A stretch of 64,000 nucleotides of DNA from Nitrospira japonica. Lineage in GTDB: Bacteria > Nitrospirota > Nitrospiria > Nitrospirales > Nitrospiraceae. The position numbers and the translations under genes are program-made. The notes under the pieces were generated by a model, which was given only the letters and a program-made list of their open reading frames with translations, was not told the DNA's origin and made no database searches. Positions 52,831 to 61,502 of this stretch are shown in pieces. The number at the start of each line of letters is the position of its first letter. The first letter of the stretch is position 1. The stretch is taken from the NCBI RefSeq assembly GCF_900169565.1, contig NZ_LT828648.1:870876-934875 (forward strand), given 5' to 3'.

Positions 52831-53175
52831 CTAGCGCGGGCCGATCTGAATGTCCCGGTCGGCGGTGAAGACGAAGACGCGTTCCCCCAGCGGTACGTCG
52901 ATGTCCGTAAAGAGGCCGATGATTTTCGCCCCCGTGATGTCGCTGACCTGTTCGCAGAGTTTGTCGCGGCCTTGGGCGATCAATGTCTGACGGATCCGCT
53001 TCACCATGTCCACTCCTTCGGGCGTCTTGGCCAGTTGGCGCTCGGCGGGTGTCAGCACGCCTTTCAACCGCACCACCACCAGATCGCGAACGATGAATGC
53101 CCGCACGTCGTCGGGACCGCGCCCCATGAATTCCTGTTCGAACTTGATGATGGCGTTTCGTAGAGCGTTTTCCAT
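52831..53175 (-). CDS. DUF2294 domain protein
   Basis: 114 aa. The pattern EQEFMGRGPDDVRAFIVRDLVVVRLKGVLTPAERQLAKTPEG, followed by IGLFTDIDVPLGERVFVFT, is that of DUF2294 (a small family sometimes called Na-translocating-decarboxylase-like, of unknown role). There is no membrane segment. It ends next to a partial dispersed repeat. It is divergent from the carbon-uptake cluster, with 373 bp between. Confidence 0.78.
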   Translation of the reverse strand: MENALRNAIIKFEQEFMGRGPDDVRAFIVRDLVVVRLKGVLTPAERQLAKTPEGVDMVKRIRQTLIAQGRDKLCEQVSDITGAKIIGLFTDIDVPLGERVFVFTADRDIQIGPR

Positions 53176-53321
53176 GATGTGATGTTCGACAACGGCGCGC
53201 CGCGTGCCTCCGGATTATAGAATCGCCCGGCGGCTCGAACAAGCAGCCGGGCGTGCATGGGATTCATAGGTCTTTCGGACCATCGGATGGCTGTTGAGTG
53301 GACTCATGCCGCGATTCCTGC

Positions 53322-53348
53322 TTGACGCTGGTCCGAACACCGTATTAA
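53322..53348 (+). promoter_or_regulatory. Promoter-like element upstream of first DabB-like gene
   Basis: TTGACG, 15 bases, TATTAA. The same boxes with the same spacing, and with GGTCCGA in the spacer, recur upstream of the second DabB-like gene. The 15-base spacing is short for sigma-70. A start near 53355 would give a leader of about 190 nt. Confidence 0.45.
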
Positions 53349-53548
53349 TGATGGGCGACGATCGGTCGACCGACAGTGTTGCTCGTCCCGGATGTGGCGT
53401 CGCAGGCGAGCAGGATGTCACGGTCGGCCGTCAGGGCCGTAGGGTGGCCGGCAGTTCGTCGAACGGCCGGTCGCAGTGCAAGCCAACGCGGGGCTCGATC
53501 AACGCGTCGAGAGACCCGGTTGGCTTTTTGTCTTTTTGCGGGTGTGAA
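53349..53548 (+). promoter_or_regulatory. Long structured leader of the carbon-uptake cluster
   Basis: 200 bases between the promoter-like element and the first DabB-like start. It is open in the gene's frame but the sequence does not resemble the paralogue's N-terminus, so it is taken as untranslated. It includes the self-complementary GTTCG/CGAAC and CCGG arms around 53440-53470 and a terminator-like hairpin at its end. No known riboswitch class is recognised. Confidence 0.4.
53481..53536 (+). terminator. Terminator-like hairpin just before the first DabB-like start codon
   Basis: AGCCAAC (53481-53487) pairs with GTTGGCT (53519-53525). Inside, GGG/CCC and CTCGA/TCGAG extend the stem around an 8-base loop. 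It is followed by TTTTTGTCTTTTT. This is the shape of an intrinsic terminator on the plus strand, ending 12 bases before the ATG. No plus-strand gene ends nearby, so an attenuator role is possible. Confidence 0.55.
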
Positions 53549-55249
53549 ATGTGGACGTTTGCCGTGCTGCTCGTGCCGTTGCTTCCGCTGCTCACCACGC
53601 TCATCGTGCTGGCCGGCGACGAGGCTGCGGTGCGGACCAGACTGACCGTGGCCGCATGGCCGATCGGCGTCGCCTGCGCGGGCGCCCTGGCGACCCTCTA
53701 CCTCGTCGCCACGCAAGGGCCGATCACGATCCGCCTGTATGATCCCGCCGGCGCCTTCCCCCTGCCGCTCGGTTTCTACGTGGACCGTCTCAGCGCGGTC
53801 ATGATGGTGCTGATTTCCGCCATCGGGACGATCATCTATACCTACTCCATCCAGTATATGAGTCAGGAGCCGCACGAACGCCGGTATTTCGCGCTGCTCG
53901 GCGTCGCCGTGTGTGTGTTGCTCTGCATGGTGTCCAGCAGCAACCTCCTCATGCTGTTCGTCTTCTGGCAGCTGCTTTCATATCTGCTCTATCTTCTCAT
54001 TCACAACCATACGCACACCGCGACACTGGAAAGCGCCTTCCGGACCTTCGCCTTGCTGCGGACCGGAGACGTCGCCTTTCTCGCGGGCACGGCCCTGGCC
54101 TATGGGCTCTACGGTACGCTGGAGTTCCCCGAATTGTTTGCCGCCGCCGTGCAGTCGGAAGCCGTCATCGAGCTGTTCTCCGGTGTGGAGTGCAGCGGCG
54201 CCACGGCGGTCACGCTGCTCCTGCTGATCGGAGCCATGAGCAAGTCGGCGCAGTTTCCCTTTCACATCTGGCTTCCTCGGTATCTGTACGCGCCGACCCC
54301 CGTGACCGCGCTGTTGCACGCCGGCATCATCAACGCCGGCGGCTTCCTGATCAATCGGCTCGCGCCGCTGTTCGGGCTCAGCTCCACGACCCTGCACATC
54401 GCCTTTCTCATCGGTACCCTGACCGCCGTCCTCGGCGCCTCCATGATGCTGGCCCAGAACGACATCAAGAACATGCTGGGGTTTTCGACGATCGGGCAGA
54501 TGGGCTACATGATCATGGAATGCGGCCTCGGCGCCTTCTCGCTGGCGGTGTTCCATCTGATCGCCCACGGCCTCTTCAAGGCCACCGTGTTCCTGAATTG
54601 CGGCAACGTCATCGGCAAGGCCCGGCTGGAGCCGCATGTCCCCCACGTCGAACAGCGGACGGATGAGGAAAGCTACTCGCGCCTGACTTGGGCGACCGGA
54701 TTCGTCACGACGTTGCTGATTCCGTTGCTGATTCTGCTGCTGACGCACGGCGTGCTGCGCATCCCCCTGCTCGAAGCGCAAGGCACCGTAATCTTCCTGT
54801 TTTTCATTTGGATCACGTCCTCGCAGGCCATCTTGACCCTCACACGCCTGCGGGCCGTCGCGTCATGGAAAGTGTCCGCCGCGATGCTGCTGACCCTCTT
54901 GTTCGTCGTGTTCGTCTACCTGTTCGCCGTCGAGTCGTTCACGGCGTTCCTGTATCCCAATCCGGACGAAGTCGCCTCCTACTTCAAGGCGGCGGAGTTG
55001 CCGAGCCGTCTCTTCGACATCATGATCGGCGTGGCGACACTCATGACCGGTCTCGGTTGGTGCTATCTCTATCTCAGGGCTCACGGCCGATCCCTTCCGA
55101 TGCCCTCCTGGGTCTACGGCATCCGTCTCCGGCTCTATGTCCTCTTCCTGAATCGGCTCCACATCGACGAAGGCGTCCAGCGTCTCAGCCAAGCACAGGT
55201 CGCCGCGGTCCGGCGATTCGAAGAGCTCGCGCAGGGCCGGACGTCCTGA
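53549..55249 (+). CDS. DabB/NuoL-like proton-antiporter-family membrane protein, copy 1
   Basis: 566 aa, about 14 hydrophobic helices. Antiporter-like core of complex I subunit L type: FYVDRLSAVMMVLISAIGTIIYTYSI, SKSAQFPFHIWLPRYLYAPTPVTALLHAG (with the conserved Lys and Pro) and AQNDIKNMLGFSTIGQMGYM. In DAB systems DabB supports CO2 uptake by DabA, coupling it to ion flow. It is the first gene of a cluster dabB-like, dabB-like, nuoM-like, dabA. The ATG at 53549 follows a weak GGGTG; the upstream open frame lacks membrane-protein character. Confidence 0.88.
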   Translation: MWTFAVLLVPLLPLLTTLIVLAGDEAAVRTRLTVAAWPIGVACAGALATLYLVATQGPITIRLYDPAGAFPLPLGFYVDRLSAVMMVLISAIGTIIYTYSIQYMSQEPHERRYFALLGVAVCVLLCMVSSSNLLMLFVFWQLLSYLLYLLIHNHTHTATLESAFRTFALLRTGDVAFLAGTALAYGLYGTLEFPELFAAAVQSEAVIELFSGVECSGATAVTLLLLIGAMSKSAQFPFHIWLPRYLYAPTPVTALLHAGIINAGGFLINRLAPLFGLSSTTLHIAFLIGTLTAVLGASMMLAQNDIKNMLGFSTIGQMGYMIMECGLGAFSLAVFHLIAHGLFKATVFLNCGNVIGKARLEPHVPHVEQRTDEESYSRLTWATGFVTTLLIPLLILLLTHGVLRIPLLEAQGTVIFLFFIWITSSQAILTLTRLRAVASWKVSAAMLLTLLFVVFVYLFAVESFTAFLYPNPDEVASYFKAAELPSRLFDIMIGVATLMTGLGWCYLYLRAHGRSLPMPSWVYGIRLRLYVLFLNRLHIDEGVQRLSQAQVAAVRRFEELAQGRTS

Positions 55250-55306: not shown

Positions 55307-57007
55307 GTGACGCTCATCCTGTTGGTACCGCTTCTCCTGCTCGCAGCCGCCTGCCTGGTGGTCTGCGGACCGGCCGGCTCCGAGCATGCTCGGGCCAAGG
55401 CAGCCGCCTATCCCATCGGAGCCGCATTCCTCGGCTCCGTTGCGACGTTGTATCTCGTGACGACCGCCGGGCCGGTCTCGATCCGGTTCTATGACTTGTC
55501 CTCGATCGCGTCGTTCGCGATTCCCATCGGATTCTACGTCGACCGCCTGAGCGCGGTGATGATGACGCTGATTACCGGCGTCAGCGTCATCATTTACACC
55601 TATTCGACGGTGTACATGTCGCAGGATCGGCACGCGCGCCGGTATCTGGCCATGATCTGCCTTACCGATTTCGTGCTGATCTGCATGGTGTCCAGCGCCA
55701 ATCTCATGATGTTGTTTCTCTTTTGGCAGGTGCTCAGCTACCTGCTCTACGTCCTCGCCCACAATCACGCTCATGCGGGAACCCTGGCGGGGGCCTTCAA
55801 GACCTTTACCCTCCTGCGTGTGGCCGATACGGCGTTTCTCGCCGGTATTGCGCTCGCCCATCAGTTGTACGGCACACTCGAATTTCAGGAACTGTTCGCG
55901 CGAGCCGCCGATACGCCGGTCATGTTGTCCTTGTGGCCCGGTCTCGAGATGCGCGGGGCCACGGCCGTCACGCTGCTGCTCTTCGTCGGGGCGATGGGCA
56001 AATCGGCCCAGTTTCCGATCCATCTGTGGCTGCCCGGCTCGCTCTTCGCGCCGACGCCCGTGCACGCGCTGCTGCACGCCGGCATCATCAACGCCGGCGG
56101 CTTCCTGATCAACCGGCTCGCGCCGCTGTTCGGGCTCAGTTCCACGACCCTGCACGTCGCCTTTCTCATCGGTACCCTGACCGCCGTCCTCGGCGCCTCC
56201 ATGATGCTGGCCCAGAACGACATCAAAAAGACGCTCGGATTCTCCACGATCGGGCAGATGGGCTACATGATCATGGAATGCGGCCTCGGCGCCTTCTCGC
56301 TGGCGGTGTTCCATCTGATCGCCCACGGCCTCTTCAAGGCCACCGTGTTCCTGAATTGCGGCAACGTCATTCACAAGGCCCGGCTGGAGCCCCATTTCCC
56401 GCATGTCGATCATCAGGACGAGGAACCAGGCCTGTCCCGTCTCACGTGGTTCACCGGCTTCGTGACCACCCTGTTCATCCCGCTTCTCATTCTCCTGGTT
56501 ACGCACGGCATCCTGCGCATCCCGTTGCTGGCATCCCAGGGAGCGGTAATTTTTCTGTTCTTCATCTGGATCACCTCGTCGCAGGCGATTCTGACGTTGA
56601 CGCGGCTGCGCCAGGTGGCATCCTGGAAGGTCTCGGCCGCGATGCTGCTGACCCTCTTGTTCATCGTGTTCGTCTATCTGTTCGCCGTCGAGTCGTTCAC
56701 GGAATTTCTGTACCCGAATCCGGAGGAAGTCGCCGCGTACTTCCGGGCCGCCGATCTTCCGGACTGGCTGTTCGACCTCATCATCGTCACCGCCACGATT
56801 CTGACCGTCGCCAGCTGGGCCTATCTCTATATGAGCGCCCATGGGATGACGCTGCGGATGCCGGCCTGGGTCGAGAACACGCGGGTACGCCTGTATCTGC
56901 CGTTCATGAACCGGCTCTATGCCGACGAATGCTATGCACTGGTCGGACAGACCATCATGCGTCTGGTCCATCAGGTCGATAAACGGGAACGAGGGTGGTC
57001 GCGGTGA
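55307..57007 (+). CDS. DabB/NuoL-like proton-antiporter-family membrane protein, copy 2
   Basis: 566 aa, the same length as copy 1 and clearly paralogous along the whole length. The core blocks are again present (GFYVDRLSAVMMTLI, GKSAQFPIHLWLPG, AQNDIKKTLGFSTIGQMGYM). GTG start with GAGGGAG upstream. Differences concentrate at the N-terminus and some loops, while a 125-base stretch is identical in DNA. The next gene overlaps its stop by four bases. The presence of two such subunits suggests a hetero-dimeric or alternative membrane module for DabA. Confidence 0.88.
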   Translation: MTLILLVPLLLLAAACLVVCGPAGSEHARAKAAAYPIGAAFLGSVATLYLVTTAGPVSIRFYDLSSIASFAIPIGFYVDRLSAVMMTLITGVSVIIYTYSTVYMSQDRHARRYLAMICLTDFVLICMVSSANLMMLFLFWQVLSYLLYVLAHNHAHAGTLAGAFKTFTLLRVADTAFLAGIALAHQLYGTLEFQELFARAADTPVMLSLWPGLEMRGATAVTLLLFVGAMGKSAQFPIHLWLPGSLFAPTPVHALLHAGIINAGGFLINRLAPLFGLSSTTLHVAFLIGTLTAVLGASMMLAQNDIKKTLGFSTIGQMGYMIMECGLGAFSLAVFHLIAHGLFKATVFLNCGNVIHKARLEPHFPHVDHQDEEPGLSRLTWFTGFVTTLFIPLLILLVTHGILRIPLLASQGAVIFLFFIWITSSQAILTLTRLRQVASWKVSAAMLLTLLFIVFVYLFAVESFTEFLYPNPEEVAAYFRAADLPDWLFDLIIVTATILTVASWAYLYMSAHGMTLRMPAWVENTRVRLYLPFMNRLYADECYALVGQTIMRLVHQVDKRERGWSR

Positions 57008-58314
57008 CGGGCGGCATGATGATACCGTCGCTCCTGGCCGGGATACCGTTGCTGGGCGCGCTTGCCAGCCTGCCCTTCCGCTCGGACCCCGAACAGCTGA
57101 AACGGTCCTGCGTCACCTGGGCCGTGCTCAGCCTCGCGTCCATCGCGGGATGCGCCAACAGAATCGAGGTGCCGACCGAAGGCCTGCTCCCGCTCTATCT
57201 TCTGCCGTTGGCCGCCACGATCTCGATTTTGGGGCAGCCGGTTCACGAGCAGCATCGGCTCTCGTGGTTGTCCACGTTGGTATTTCTTGGGATCGGCTTG
57301 TCGGTCCTGAGCGGGCCGCCCCTGATTGCCCCGTTGACCGTGGCGCTCCTCTCGGCGTTGATCGCGGGCTTGCTCTATCAACACCACAGCGCCCTCTGGC
57401 CCAGATCCTGGTGGGGCATCGGCGCCTACGGTTTCGGCGCCTTGTGCGCCGCCCTGTCGGCCGCCGTCGGTGATCCTCTGTCCTCGCTTGCGTCCTTGCT
57501 GGCCTGCGGGGTTTTGCTTCCGCTCCTGCCGTTTCACGACGGCTACCTGACGGCGCTGACGCGGCTGCCCGGCAGCCTGCCCTCGTTCATCGTCGTCCTC
57601 CTTCCCCTTGTCGGTCTTCATTTGTTGGCGGCTGCCATGCCCACGGTTTCGGACAGCGTGGCCTGGACGGTCGGCTTCTTCGCCCTGGCGGGAGCCTCTT
57701 ACGGCGCATTCAAAGCCCTGGCTCAATCGCGGGTCCGTCTCCTGTTGGCGTACGGCAGCCTTTCCTTCTTTTCCATCTTCTGGTGGTTCGCCGCCGCCTC
57801 GCGAACGGCCACGCCACGGGCCGCCCTCCTGGTCGGGACGGTAGGCCTCGCCACAAGCGGCCTCATGGTCGCCTGGCAAGTGGTCCGAACCAGATACGGC
57901 GACGACGTGGATCCTCAGGCGATCAGCGGCCTGGCGACGGGCATGCCGCAGTATGCCGTACTCCTCTCCCTGCTGGCGCTGGCGGCAATGGGCCTGCCAC
58001 CCTTCGGCGTCTTTGCCGGATTCATGGGACTGTTGCTGGGCTCGCCCTTTCCGTCTTTGGCCGGCCTGTTCGTCACGCTCCTGGCATGGCTCGCCGCATC
58101 TTGGTACATCATGCAGATGGTGCAGCGGTTGCTCTTCGGGATCCGACGGCCGGAACTCCGATACACCGATCTGCTCCAAGCCGAGCTGGCTTCACTATTG
58201 ATCGTCGTACTGGTTCTGCTCGCATTGGGACTGGTGCCGTCGACCCTGTTTGCCTCCGAACCAGCCGCACTCGGGATCCCCATTCTCGGAGAATCATTCA
58301 CGTGGAACCGGTAG
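57004..58314 (+). CDS. NuoM/NuoN-like antiporter-family membrane protein
   Basis: 436 aa from the GTG at 57004 that overlaps the upstream stop (GTGA); a GTG nine bases earlier is possible. Many hydrophobic helices. The C-terminal block MGLPPFGVFAGFMGLLLGSPFPSLAGLFVTLLAWLAASWYIMQMVQRLLFG resembles the proton-antiporter region of complex I subunit 4 (NuoM). The N-terminal half is diverged and lacks some charged residues of true NuoM. It may be a third ion-translocating subunit of the DabA module. Overlaps the dabA start by 13 bases. Confidence 0.78.
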   Translation: MTGGMMIPSLLAGIPLLGALASLPFRSDPEQLKRSCVTWAVLSLASIAGCANRIEVPTEGLLPLYLLPLAATISILGQPVHEQHRLSWLSTLVFLGIGLSVLSGPPLIAPLTVALLSALIAGLLYQHHSALWPRSWWGIGAYGFGALCAALSAAVGDPLSSLASLLACGVLLPLLPFHDGYLTALTRLPGSLPSFIVVLLPLVGLHLLAAAMPTVSDSVAWTVGFFALAGASYGAFKALAQSRVRLLLAYGSLSFFSIFWWFAAASRTATPRAALLVGTVGLATSGLMVAWQVVRTRYGDDVDPQAISGLATGMPQYAVLLSLLALAAMGLPPFGVFAGFMGLLLGSPFPSLAGLFVTLLAWLAASWYIMQMVQRLLFGIRRPELRYTDLLQAELASLLIVVLVLLALGLVPSTLFASEPAALGIPILGESFTWNR

Positions 58315-61300
58315 ACCAGGCCCCCGACATCGAAGCGAGACGGATGGAGTTGCGCGGGGTCGTTCGTCTCGCCGGGGAGGTCATCGCGCAATATTGGCCG
58401 ATGCGGACGTTCGTCCATCACAATCCGCTCCATAGCCTCGAATATCTTCCTTTCGAGGAGACAGTCCGCCGCGGCAAGCAATTCATGGGCGGGAGCGGCT
58501 ATCTTTCCGGCGAGTTGTATCGCCAATACGTCCGGTCCGGTCGGATCAGGGTCGAACACCTGGATGACGTCATCCGCCCGCTGACGCAGAACGCCCGCGT
58601 CGCGGTCGGCCCTCGCACCGTCTCGCACGGCGAGGTACTGCGCGCCTGTCTGACCGGCGGACTGGGATCGCCCTCCGTCGAACCGCTCGACAGCCAGTTG
58701 CCCGATCCCTCGCATGCGTTGATCGATCGGCTCGCGGCCCGACTCGAGTCGGTGCTGACGTATCCGGACCTGCTGACACGCATACGTACGATCGCGGAAG
58801 CGGATGAAGCCTCCCTGGGACGATGGCTCACCCTGTCGCACTGGTGCGACGACACGCTGGGCACGCAGATCGTCCGCCAGATCAACGAGCAACTCATCAA
58901 ATGGTGCGAGGCGTTCCTCGACGAAGGACACGCCACCTGGGCCATGCCCGAACGCGAGAAGGGCCTCTACCAGGCCTGGAAGACGATCGCGGCGCACGAA
59001 TGGTCGCCCTGCGGGATTGCCGACAGCGGGCGAAAAATCGCCGCTCTTCCCGACTATCCCGAGGACGCGCTCTTGGAGAGCCTCGATCGGCTCGGCATTC
59101 CATCCGAGCTCCGCCAGGATTATCTCTCGCTCCAGTTGACCGCCCTCCCCGGTTGGGCCGGTTTCATCAAGTGGCGGGGCGAAGAACGTGACTATCCCTG
59201 GCAACAGGCCTATCCGGCCGGGCTCGTGAAGTTTCTGGCCATCCGCCTCTGGTACGCGCGCGAGCTCGTTCAGAAAGCCTGCCGGACCGAGCTAGGTATC
59301 GACGGCCGCTATGCGGCCGTGACCGACTACATGCGCAGCCATCCGAATGAGTATTACCTGCGCAAGCAGCGGGTCGCGGGACGTCTGCCCGCCTTGTACG
59401 CGGAAGAAGTCGATCGTCTGGCCCATCAGAGAGGCCGCGGGTGGCAGGCGGTGCTCGATCGCTATCAGATCGAGGTGGTTCCCCGACAGGCGGCGGCCGC
59501 TCGTCGAGGTGCGGCCAGAACGCTGCTGGCGCTGGCACGGTCACTGGAGCTCGACCCGGAGCACCTTGCCGCAACCGACTCAGACGCGCTGAAGCAACTG
59601 GTCGACTGGATCGAGGCGTTCCCCGAGCCCACCCACGGCCCGGTCTGGCTCAAGGCGCTCGAAGCGAGCTATCAGCACTCCCTCCTGGGGCAGCTCCGGT
59701 CCCGAACGACGGGAACCGACTCCGCGGCTCAAATCCGTCCCTACTCGCAGTCGGTCTACTGCATCGACGTGCGATCGGAACCGTTCCGCCGGCATTTGGA
59801 ATCGACCGGCGCCCATGACACCTACGGTTTCGCCGGATTTTTTGCCGCGTTCATCCGGTTTCGGGCTTGGGATAAGGAACACGACACGGAACAATTCCCG
59901 GTCATCATGCGCGCCAAAAACGAGGTTCGGGAGATTCCCCGCAGCTACCTCGACCACAAGGTTTCCACCCATGAGGCCCGTACGAAATGGGTTCATGCCG
60001 GCCATACGCTGCTTCACGATCTGAAAGAAAACGTCGTCACGCCCTACGTCATGGTTGAATCGTTGGGATGGGTCTATGCGATTCCCATTTTCGGCAAGAC
60101 CCTCTGGCCGTCGCTGTACCGGCGATGGACGTCCTGGTTGCGCCGGTTGTTCGTCCCCTCTATCGCCACGACGCTCACCGTCGGCAAGATGGCTCCCGAC
60201 GAAACCGCCGAGATGGTGGCGGCGCAGCAGCAGGCCAGGATCAGAGCCGCGCTCGAAGAACACACGGGGCTGCGCAAGTCCCGCATCACGCCAGTGCTCG
60301 TCGAGGGGTTGCGGCAACGGTCGTTGAGCGGCACCGGGGAAACCGATCAGATGCTCTTGGACGCGGCCGCGCAGGCGGGCCTTACGGCTGAGACGGTCGA
60401 CCGGCTCGTCGGACTCCTCCAGCGGCAGTACGGCATCAGCGCGCGCGCCGCGTCCCATCAACGGGAGCGGATCACGCGCACGGGCTTCACGCTGGACGAG
60501 CAAGTCCTGACGGTCGATACGGCATTACGCATGATGGGCTTGACGAAAAACTTCGCAAGACTGGTGCTGTTCTGCGCGCACGGCAGCACGTCCGAGAACA
60601 ATCCCTATGAATCCGCGCTCGACTGCGGGGCCTGCGGCGGCAACGAGGGCAAGCCCAATGCGCGGGTCCTGGCCATGATGGCGAACAATCGCACCGTCCG
60701 GGAACGCCTCGCCAAGAACGGCCTCGACATTCCGGCCGATACCCATTTCCTGGCTGGACAGATGGATACGACGACGGACCAGGTGACGCTGTTCGACCTC
60801 GAAGACGTGCCGCCAACCCACCGCGCCGATCTGGCCCGGCTCCAGGAAGATCTTCAGGAAGCGGCCGAATTGACGAGTCAGGAACGCTGCGCGCGCTTTC
60901 CGGATCTGGAGCCGCCGCTCGTCGGCCAGCAAGCGGTCGCGCACGTGCAACAGCGCAGTGCGGATTGGAGTCAGGTGCGGCCCGAATGGGGACTCTCAGG
61001 CAACACGGCCATCATTTTCGGACGCCGGGAGCTGACCAAGGGTCTCGACCTCGACGGCCGGGTCTTCCTGCACTCCTACGACTACCGGGAAGACCCGTCC
61101 AATCGGTTGTTGGAGGTGCTGCTGACTGCGCCTCAAGTGGTGGCCCAGTGGATCAATATGGAACACTATTTTTCCATCACCGACAACGAGGTCTACGGGA
61201 GCGGGAGCAAGATTTACCACAACGTCGTCGGCCGGCTCGGGATTATGTCGGGCCCCTGGAGCGATCTTCGCCTGGGGCTCGCGCGGCAGACCGTCATGAA

Positions 61301-61502
61301 CGGTGAGCGACCGTATCACGAACCGATGCGGCTCCTGACGATCATCGAGGCTCCGCGCGAGCGCATCGACAAACTGATCGGGCGACACGAGGTGTTGCAG
61401 CACTTTTATCACAATGAGTGGGTCCATCTCGTCGCGCTCGATCCCCAGGACGCGGTATGGTATCGGTATCGCCCCACCGGGGGATGGCAACGAATCGAGT
61501 AG
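58302..61502 (+). CDS. dabA: DabA-family (DUF2309) inorganic-carbon transport protein
   Basis: 1066 aa from a GTG at 58302; an ATG at 58344 is possible. DabA is a large soluble protein with a beta-carbonic-anhydrase-like zinc site; with DabB it accumulates bicarbonate. The predicted ligands are all visible: C487 and D489 in YCIDVRSEPF, H760 in FCAHGSTSENN and C775 in LDCGACGGNEG. The C-x-D and H-x14-C spacings equal those known for Halothiobacillus DabA. The first residues overlap the NuoM-like gene. The frame is open far upstream inside that gene, without similarity. It is the last large gene of the carbon-uptake cluster. Confidence 0.93.
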   Translation: MEPVDQAPDIEARRMELRGVVRLAGEVIAQYWPMRTFVHHNPLHSLEYLPFEETVRRGKQFMGGSGYLSGELYRQYVRSGRIRVEHLDDVIRPLTQNARVAVGPRTVSHGEVLRACLTGGLGSPSVEPLDSQLPDPSHALIDRLAARLESVLTYPDLLTRIRTIAEADEASLGRWLTLSHWCDDTLGTQIVRQINEQLIKWCEAFLDEGHATWAMPEREKGLYQAWKTIAAHEWSPCGIADSGRKIAALPDYPEDALLESLDRLGIPSELRQDYLSLQLTALPGWAGFIKWRGEERDYPWQQAYPAGLVKFLAIRLWYARELVQKACRTELGIDGRYAAVTDYMRSHPNEYYLRKQRVAGRLPALYAEEVDRLAHQRGRGWQAVLDRYQIEVVPRQAAAARRGAARTLLALARSLELDPEHLAATDSDALKQLVDWIEAFPEPTHGPVWLKALEASYQHSLLGQLRSRTTGTDSAAQIRPYSQSVYCIDVRSEPFRRHLESTGAHDTYGFAGFFAAFIRFRAWDKEHDTEQFPVIMRAKNEVREIPRSYLDHKVSTHEARTKWVHAGHTLLHDLKENVVTPYVMVESLGWVYAIPIFGKTLWPSLYRRWTSWLRRLFVPSIATTLTVGKMAPDETAEMVAAQQQARIRAALEEHTGLRKSRITPVLVEGLRQRSLSGTGETDQMLLDAAAQAGLTAETVDRLVGLLQRQYGISARAASHQRERITRTGFTLDEQVLTVDTALRMMGLTKNFARLVLFCAHGSTSENNPYESALDCGACGGNEGKPNARVLAMMANNRTVRERLAKNGLDIPADTHFLAGQMDTTTDQVTLFDLEDVPPTHRADLARLQEDLQEAAELTSQERCARFPDLEPPLVGQQAVAHVQQRSADWSQVRPEWGLSGNTAIIFGRRELTKGLDLDGRVFLHSYDYREDPSNRLLEVLLTAPQVVAQWINMEHYFSITDNEVYGSGSKIYHNVVGRLGIMSGPWSDLRLGLARQTVMNGERPYHEPMRLLTIIEAPRERIDKLIGRHEVLQHFYHNEWVHLVALDPQDAVWYRYRPTGGWQRIE

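Follow-up and report, generated by a model that had tools for sequence, protein, structure and literature searches.

A putative riboswitch-type attenuator upstream of inorganic-carbon acquisition genes in Nitrospirales

The dabB1 leader in Nitrospira japonica

The window, i.e. the whole stretch of 64,000 nucleotides that was analysed, contains a plus-strand cluster in which dabB1 is followed by its paralogue dabB2, a third Proton_antipo_M gene and dabA, see Table 1. On the minus strand 5' of the dabB1 leader, Pfam identifies genes for an ABC-ATPase, a hydrolase, SelO and MpsC. A preliminary description of this DNA noted that the 10 kb before the leader contain no end of a plus-strand gene. This agrees with our search, where none of the five plus-strand ORFs tested in that region, a non-exhaustive set, has a Pfam match.

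Table 1. Features of the dabB1 leader and the surrounding genes in the window.
Feature	Position	Strand	Basis and remarks
mpsC (PF10057)	52831-53175	-	divergent from the leader
Promoter-like element	53322-53348	+	TTGACG 53322-53327, 15-nt spacer, TATTAA 53343-53348; sequence
Domain 1 hairpin	53372-53419	+	lower stem GACA/TGTC, internal loop, upper stem; covariation
Conserved core (domain 2)	53430-53487	+	R2 match, 68.2 bits
P2a closing helix, 5' arm (GGC)	53435-53437	+	GGY count in relatives
P2	53439-53479	+	GUA-GG-GUGGCCGGC ... GCCGGUCGC-AG-UGC; near-invariant GG/AG internal loop; covariation
Intrinsic terminator	53480-53537	+	stem 53480-53526, T-tract TTTTTGTCTTTTT 53525-53537; sequence and folding
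GCC common to P2a and terminator 5' arm	53482-53484	+	folding, relatives
dabB1 (Proton_antipo_M/N)	53549-55249	+	first gene of the cluster downstream of the leader; Pfam
dabB2 paralogue, without own leader	55307-57007	+	Pfam; element search of the genome
Third Proton_antipo_M gene	56995-58314	+	Pfam
dabA (PF10070, 887 bits)	58350-61502	+	start approximate, inside ORF 57783-61502

According to the folding, the terminator stem in the window has 18 pairs, arranged as 8+4+6, and 11 nt (GCGGGTGTGAA) separate the T-tract from the dabB1 ATG at 53549, close to the roughly 15 pairs and 12 bases described earlier. The -10-like TATTAA lies about 130 nt 5' of the stem, the distance also given before, and the RNA would start at about 53355. 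Many orthologous leaders have TATTAT or TATTAA at the equivalent place. Our promoter scan did not list the TTGACG/TATTAA pair because its 15-nt spacer is shorter than the accepted 16-18, and the terminator is absent from the output of a simple terminator scan of the window, probably because that scan permits no interior loops. The 200-nt leader folds at -99.3 kcal/mol, compared with a mean of -84.0 for shuffled sequences (z -3.46, 0 of 200 shuffles as good), and the terminator segment has a z of -2.82 (1 of 200 shuffles as good).

The gap between dabB1 and dabB2 is only 57 nt, and a covariance-model search finds the RNA element described below as a single copy in the 4.08-Mb host genome, so the second paralogue indeed lacks a leader. 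No similar DNA was present in the plasmid collection searched.

Conserved architecture and covariation

A pattern scan of dabB loci gave 41 places. Two of them (L065 and L096) matched by chance, and a third, L001, is a repeat of the window; the other 38 were aligned with the window, resulting in 39 leaders, one of which (L018:2543) precedes a gene other than dabB. The invariant columns in this alignment are GUAGGG, AGU and GCCA. The core has the consensus GGY-N-GUA-GG-GYGRCCGGC ... GCCGGYCRC-AG-UAC-AA-GCC, with GUAGGG present in 136 of 142 anchored rows, and the terminal loop of P2 is variable.

Covariation in orthologous leaders, which the preliminary description named as a check on its reading, was found both for the whole structure and for the core. 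The first alignment, A2, holds 36 leaders without the terminator; L032, L035 and L036 were left out for their divergent core. Here, 17 out of 30 pairs show double changes, with 90 such cells where shuffles give 32.2 (none of 500 as high), and the cells that are paired fall from 86.9% to at most 46.7% when the partners are slid. In domain 1, 12 of the 15 pairs in the two helices are changed on both sides. For the core alone, 53 sequences from three families were aligned, leaving out L158 and some near-duplicates. This gave 57 double-change cells against 14.8 in shuffles, again with 0 of 500 as high, and 92.1% of the cells are paired compared with at most 45.5% when slid. A double change is seen in 9 out of 15 core pairs, a number reached by 7 of 500 shuffles.

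The structure was set by hand from pair counts, so these values lean to the same data, and unconstrained folding serves as the independent check. It recovers P2 (12 pairs) and not the 3-pair P2a. P2a rests on the fold of the window and on the GGY count: a GGY at most 7 nt before GUAGGG occurs in 135 of 142 anchored elements, against 37.9 expected from shuffled letters.

Two covariance models were used, R1 for both domains and R2 for the core. R1 matches the window at 53370-53487 with 88.5 bits, including domain 1. This domain is kept in the family, and a hairpin of similar plan is found in one Mrp-type subgroup; elsewhere it is reduced or different, for instance in several dabA- and Mrp-type leaders, which makes the core the essential part. 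A kink-turn reading of the internal loop of domain 1 was dropped, as the loop differs among subgroups.

The frame in the window is open from a TTG at 53294 to the ATG, and the leader could in principle be coding, with the TTG as the true start of dabB1. However, in 11 of 12 relatives there are in-frame stops within the 195 nt upstream, leader lengths vary out of frame, and the covariation is that of an RNA. We find a coding leader scarcely credible, and the upstream translation start that was named earlier as evidence against an attenuator is thus not what these 11 relatives have.

Distribution across genomes

With R1, the element is found in 107 of 175 genomes of the family (E <= 0.01) and in 100 of 395 genomes in a phylum draw (E <= 0.1). 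With R2, it is found in 173 of 235 genomes of Nitrospirales, representing 30 of 37 genera, and 62 of the 235 have no R2 match at E <= 0.01. In the phylum draw, R2 finds 110 out of 395 genomes (E <= 0.001), all within Nitrospirales. Among 25 genomes with other dabB loci, only five have clear matches, and these are titled Nitrospirales or Nitrospira moscoviensis; two matches at E of about 0.08 were judged not credible, and 18 genomes, including one titled Nitrospira sp. (L046), gave no match. Named anchors are FP929003.1:4302379-4302443 and CP092081.1:2816453-2816516, and in N. moscoviensis (NZ_CP011801.1, reached via L070) the element is located at C1:4576534-4576588.

Some matches were rejected: an R1 match inside an ORF and without an R2 match (L165:5915-5974), R2 matches in L276 and L277 with neither a terminator nor a carbon gene, and a minus-strand match of 19.3 bits in L150.

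Genes downstream of the element

The downstream genes were tallied for 143 elements, leaving out same-place repeats (L138, L147, L149), L002-L066, most of which come from genomes already represented, L003:5736 and L018:2543. L231 and L232 are maybe one element split over two contig ends. The first gene is dabB in 98 cases, which largely reflect vertical descent and are not independent, MnhE of an Mrp-type operon in 21, dabA in 11 and SulP in 10. The remaining three elements are followed by an LCIB-type limiting-CO2-inducible carbonic anhydrase (E 6.3e-53), a CsoSCA-like carbonic anhydrase (23.8 bits, cut-off 21.5) and a contig edge, i.e. 142 out of 143 precede a dabB, Mrp operon, dabA, SulP or carbonic-anhydrase gene. 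Pfam confirmed Sulfate_transp, MNHE, MrpF, MnhG and DabA on examples. There are 24 further, mostly weak, matches; two are false and 22 stand before like kinds of genes (DabB 10, SulP 8 with one a repeat of L166, MnhE 2, DabA 2).

The nearest NCBIfam models of the SulP protein are the general SulP models and BicA is weaker, far below its cut-off, so bicarbonate is only the presumed substrate. The leader set aside from the tally at L018:2543-2598, with element and terminator, stands before a 797-aa protein (L018:2735-5128, +) without a Pfam match, possibly an unrecognised carbon-related exported protein.

Comparison with known RNAs

No Rfam 15 family matches at gathering in the window or, in nine relatives' loci, at E <= 1, and two short leaders compared at E <= 10 gave only matches far below the gathering scores. 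The RNA is a class absent from Rfam 15, and assignment to a known Rfam class was rejected for want of a covariance-model match. The Na+ and Li+ riboswitch models in Rfam match neither the two short leaders nor these nine loci.

The closest likeness in general plan considered here is the Na+-I riboswitch (DUF1646 motif), also a leader RNA with a terminator, placed before ion-transport genes and having two base-paired substructures. Its description (White et al. 2022, PMC9337991) reports that the ligand gives read-through and that the conserved nucleotides belong to the P1 base and to the loop of P2. In the new RNA, by contrast, the internal loop of P2 and P2a are conserved, the loops are variable, and the genes are different (DabA/B, SulP, carbonic anhydrases). 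Membership in Na+-I was rejected, given the variable P2 loop and the lack of a cmscan match.

The c-di-GMP-I (GEMM) and T-box elements contain motifs with GUAGGU or AGGGUGG strings, and GUAGGGUGRCC shows a short, superficial resemblance to these. However, there is no covariance-model match to either, and in the new RNA the bases that follow GUAGGG pair and covary. T-box membership was rejected on the same grounds, as the T-box antiterminator has an unpaired UGGN and the corresponding positions here are paired and covary.

The open-access literature searched yielded no bicarbonate or CO2 riboswitch and no report of an orphan riboswitch with a carbonic anhydrase. Where that literature treats riboswitch candidates together with Nitrospir, it concerns guanidine.

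Proposed switch mechanism

The terminator forms part of a larger conserved RNA, as its expression platform. In a strict test, requiring at least six uninterrupted pairs from the GCC that also closes the core, 135 out of 143 elements have a terminator stem starting at this GCC, and most of the eight failures were judged by eye to be limits of the script. The element is a conserved, structured RNA 5' of functionally related genes, in which the GCC is shared with the terminator and a matching GGY arm is nearly always present. In the window, the terminator state is about 7 kcal/mol better than the P2a state (-52.3 vs -45.2 kcal/mol), and P2a forms in the best fold before the 3' arm of the terminator exists. 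The earlier description of an attenuator or riboswitch platform, made from position and shape, is supported by the covarying leaders and by the overlap of the terminator arm with an aptamer-like core, the riboswitch nature being putative.

In some ON riboswitches that end transcription, such as the pbuE adenine riboswitch, the closing helix of the aptamer overlaps a terminator arm. The new RNA shares with these the strand common to closing helix and terminator 5' arm and differs in the sequence and fold of its aptamer. During transcription of the leader, P2 with its GG/AG internal loop would fold and be closed by P2a (GGY:GCC), and the 3' arm of the terminator, once made, would compete for the GCC. 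If no signal is present, the terminator would win and transcription would stop before dabB1. If a ligand or partner stabilises the P2/P2a core, with domain 1 probably involved, the base of the terminator would be left incomplete and the operon would be read. Since the closing GCC of the core is also part of the terminator 5' arm, a stabilised core should give read-through. We infer from these features a co-transcriptional competition of ON sign, with inorganic-carbon status as the signal.

A strong terminator is predicted by default, as expected also if the terminator were constitutive and made a small RNA or insulated the operon without regulation. Such a terminator would silence its own operon, and a plain terminator needs neither the covariation of the core nor its invariance at several unrelated kinds of genes, which makes this explanation very improbable. 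The core could also be stabilised by an RNA-binding regulator instead of a small ligand, a protein preventing the termination. The restriction to one order and the few copies per genome would suit co-evolution with a dedicated protein; however, near-invariant internal-loop nucleotides within variable helices and no conserved terminal loop are more aptamer-like, and an unsystematic look at the neighbours showed no candidate regulator gene beside the element. We regard a protein-dependent attenuator as unlikely.

On the sequence comparisons, the dabB1 leader is fairly likely to be a cis-acting, riboswitch-type attenuator of an orphan class for inorganic-carbon acquisition genes in Nitrospirales. 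The RNA would work like a terminator-coupled riboswitch and is a candidate for that class.

Insertions of about 100 nt are found between the terminator and the start codon before dabB in L017, L019 and L033, and the switch apparently tolerates them.

The signal

Judged from the gene association, the signal is probably carbon, as there is little biochemistry apart from inorganic carbon that the targets have in common. They comprise vectorial CO2 hydration (DabA/DabB), its likely membrane partner of Mrp type (in L160, dabA is directly followed by MnhE), an anion carrier and two carbonic anhydrases. Of the two signals guessed in the preliminary description, inorganic carbon fits these contexts, and a nucleotide has no specific support and no match among the Rfam nucleotide riboswitches. 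Bicarbonate/CO2, a low-carbon metabolite, Na+, pH or a protein partner are the candidates considered; a Zn2+ signal would account for DabA and the carbonic anhydrases, but the carriers would be left unexplained.

Na+ or alkaline pH might be what the RNA senses, the carbon genes following because bicarbonate uptake and Mrp are tied to both. SulP bicarbonate carriers can be Na+-dependent, which together with the 21 elements before Mrp-type operons would agree with this. With these signals, the carriers and Mrp make sense as targets and the soluble carbonic anhydrases do not, and dabA and dabB are targets as well; the lack of a match to the Na+ and Li+ models also argues against them. In the literature, Mrp-type operons are linked to saline and alkaline habitats (PMC12342949), and DAB2 is described as independent of Na+ with proton-driven behaviour, whereas Na+ is reported for its homologue MpsAB (PMC13144422). 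A Na+ or pH sensor appears quite unlikely.

A riboswitch binding inorganic carbon itself (bicarbonate, carbonate or CO2) and setting the whole DabA/DabB-Mrp-SulP-carbonic-anhydrase set in Nitrospirales is a tentative possibility. It would be odd if bicarbonate itself turned on a gene for its uptake, which points to a low-carbon ligand or to the opposite sign.

Nitrospirales are major nitrite oxidisers and complete nitrifiers that fix CO2, and the open-access literature searched gave no account of carbon-supply sensing in them. Being a structured RNA with an almost exclusive link to inorganic-carbon genes, the element offers a small in vitro target for finding the signal. If the ligand were inorganic carbon, this would be, to our knowledge, the first such riboswitch and a second anion case beside fluoride; if it were a low-carbon metabolite, it would name the signal used in these autotrophs. 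With either ligand, a ready CO2/bicarbonate reporter could be tested.

Neighbourhoods of individual copies

Three copies of the RNA are found in one neighbourhood in L152:2985-11022 and in L153:1999-18988, one each before SulP, dabA and an Mrp-type operon. The copy at L177:201-2208 (+) stands before a second, divergent SulP, which is followed by a gene with a universal-stress-protein domain. Short frames between the RNA and dabB in L245:346-588 (+), L246 and L230 (-) resemble a broken N-terminus of DabA (DAQRHSLRS...), which suggests dabA as the original gene behind the RNA, with a later loss or move of dabA. Homologues of MpsC are located near the RNA in many sister-family loci (L152, L153, L154, L156, L160, L164, L166, L168, L170), and MpsC seems to accompany the DabA system regularly in these genomes.
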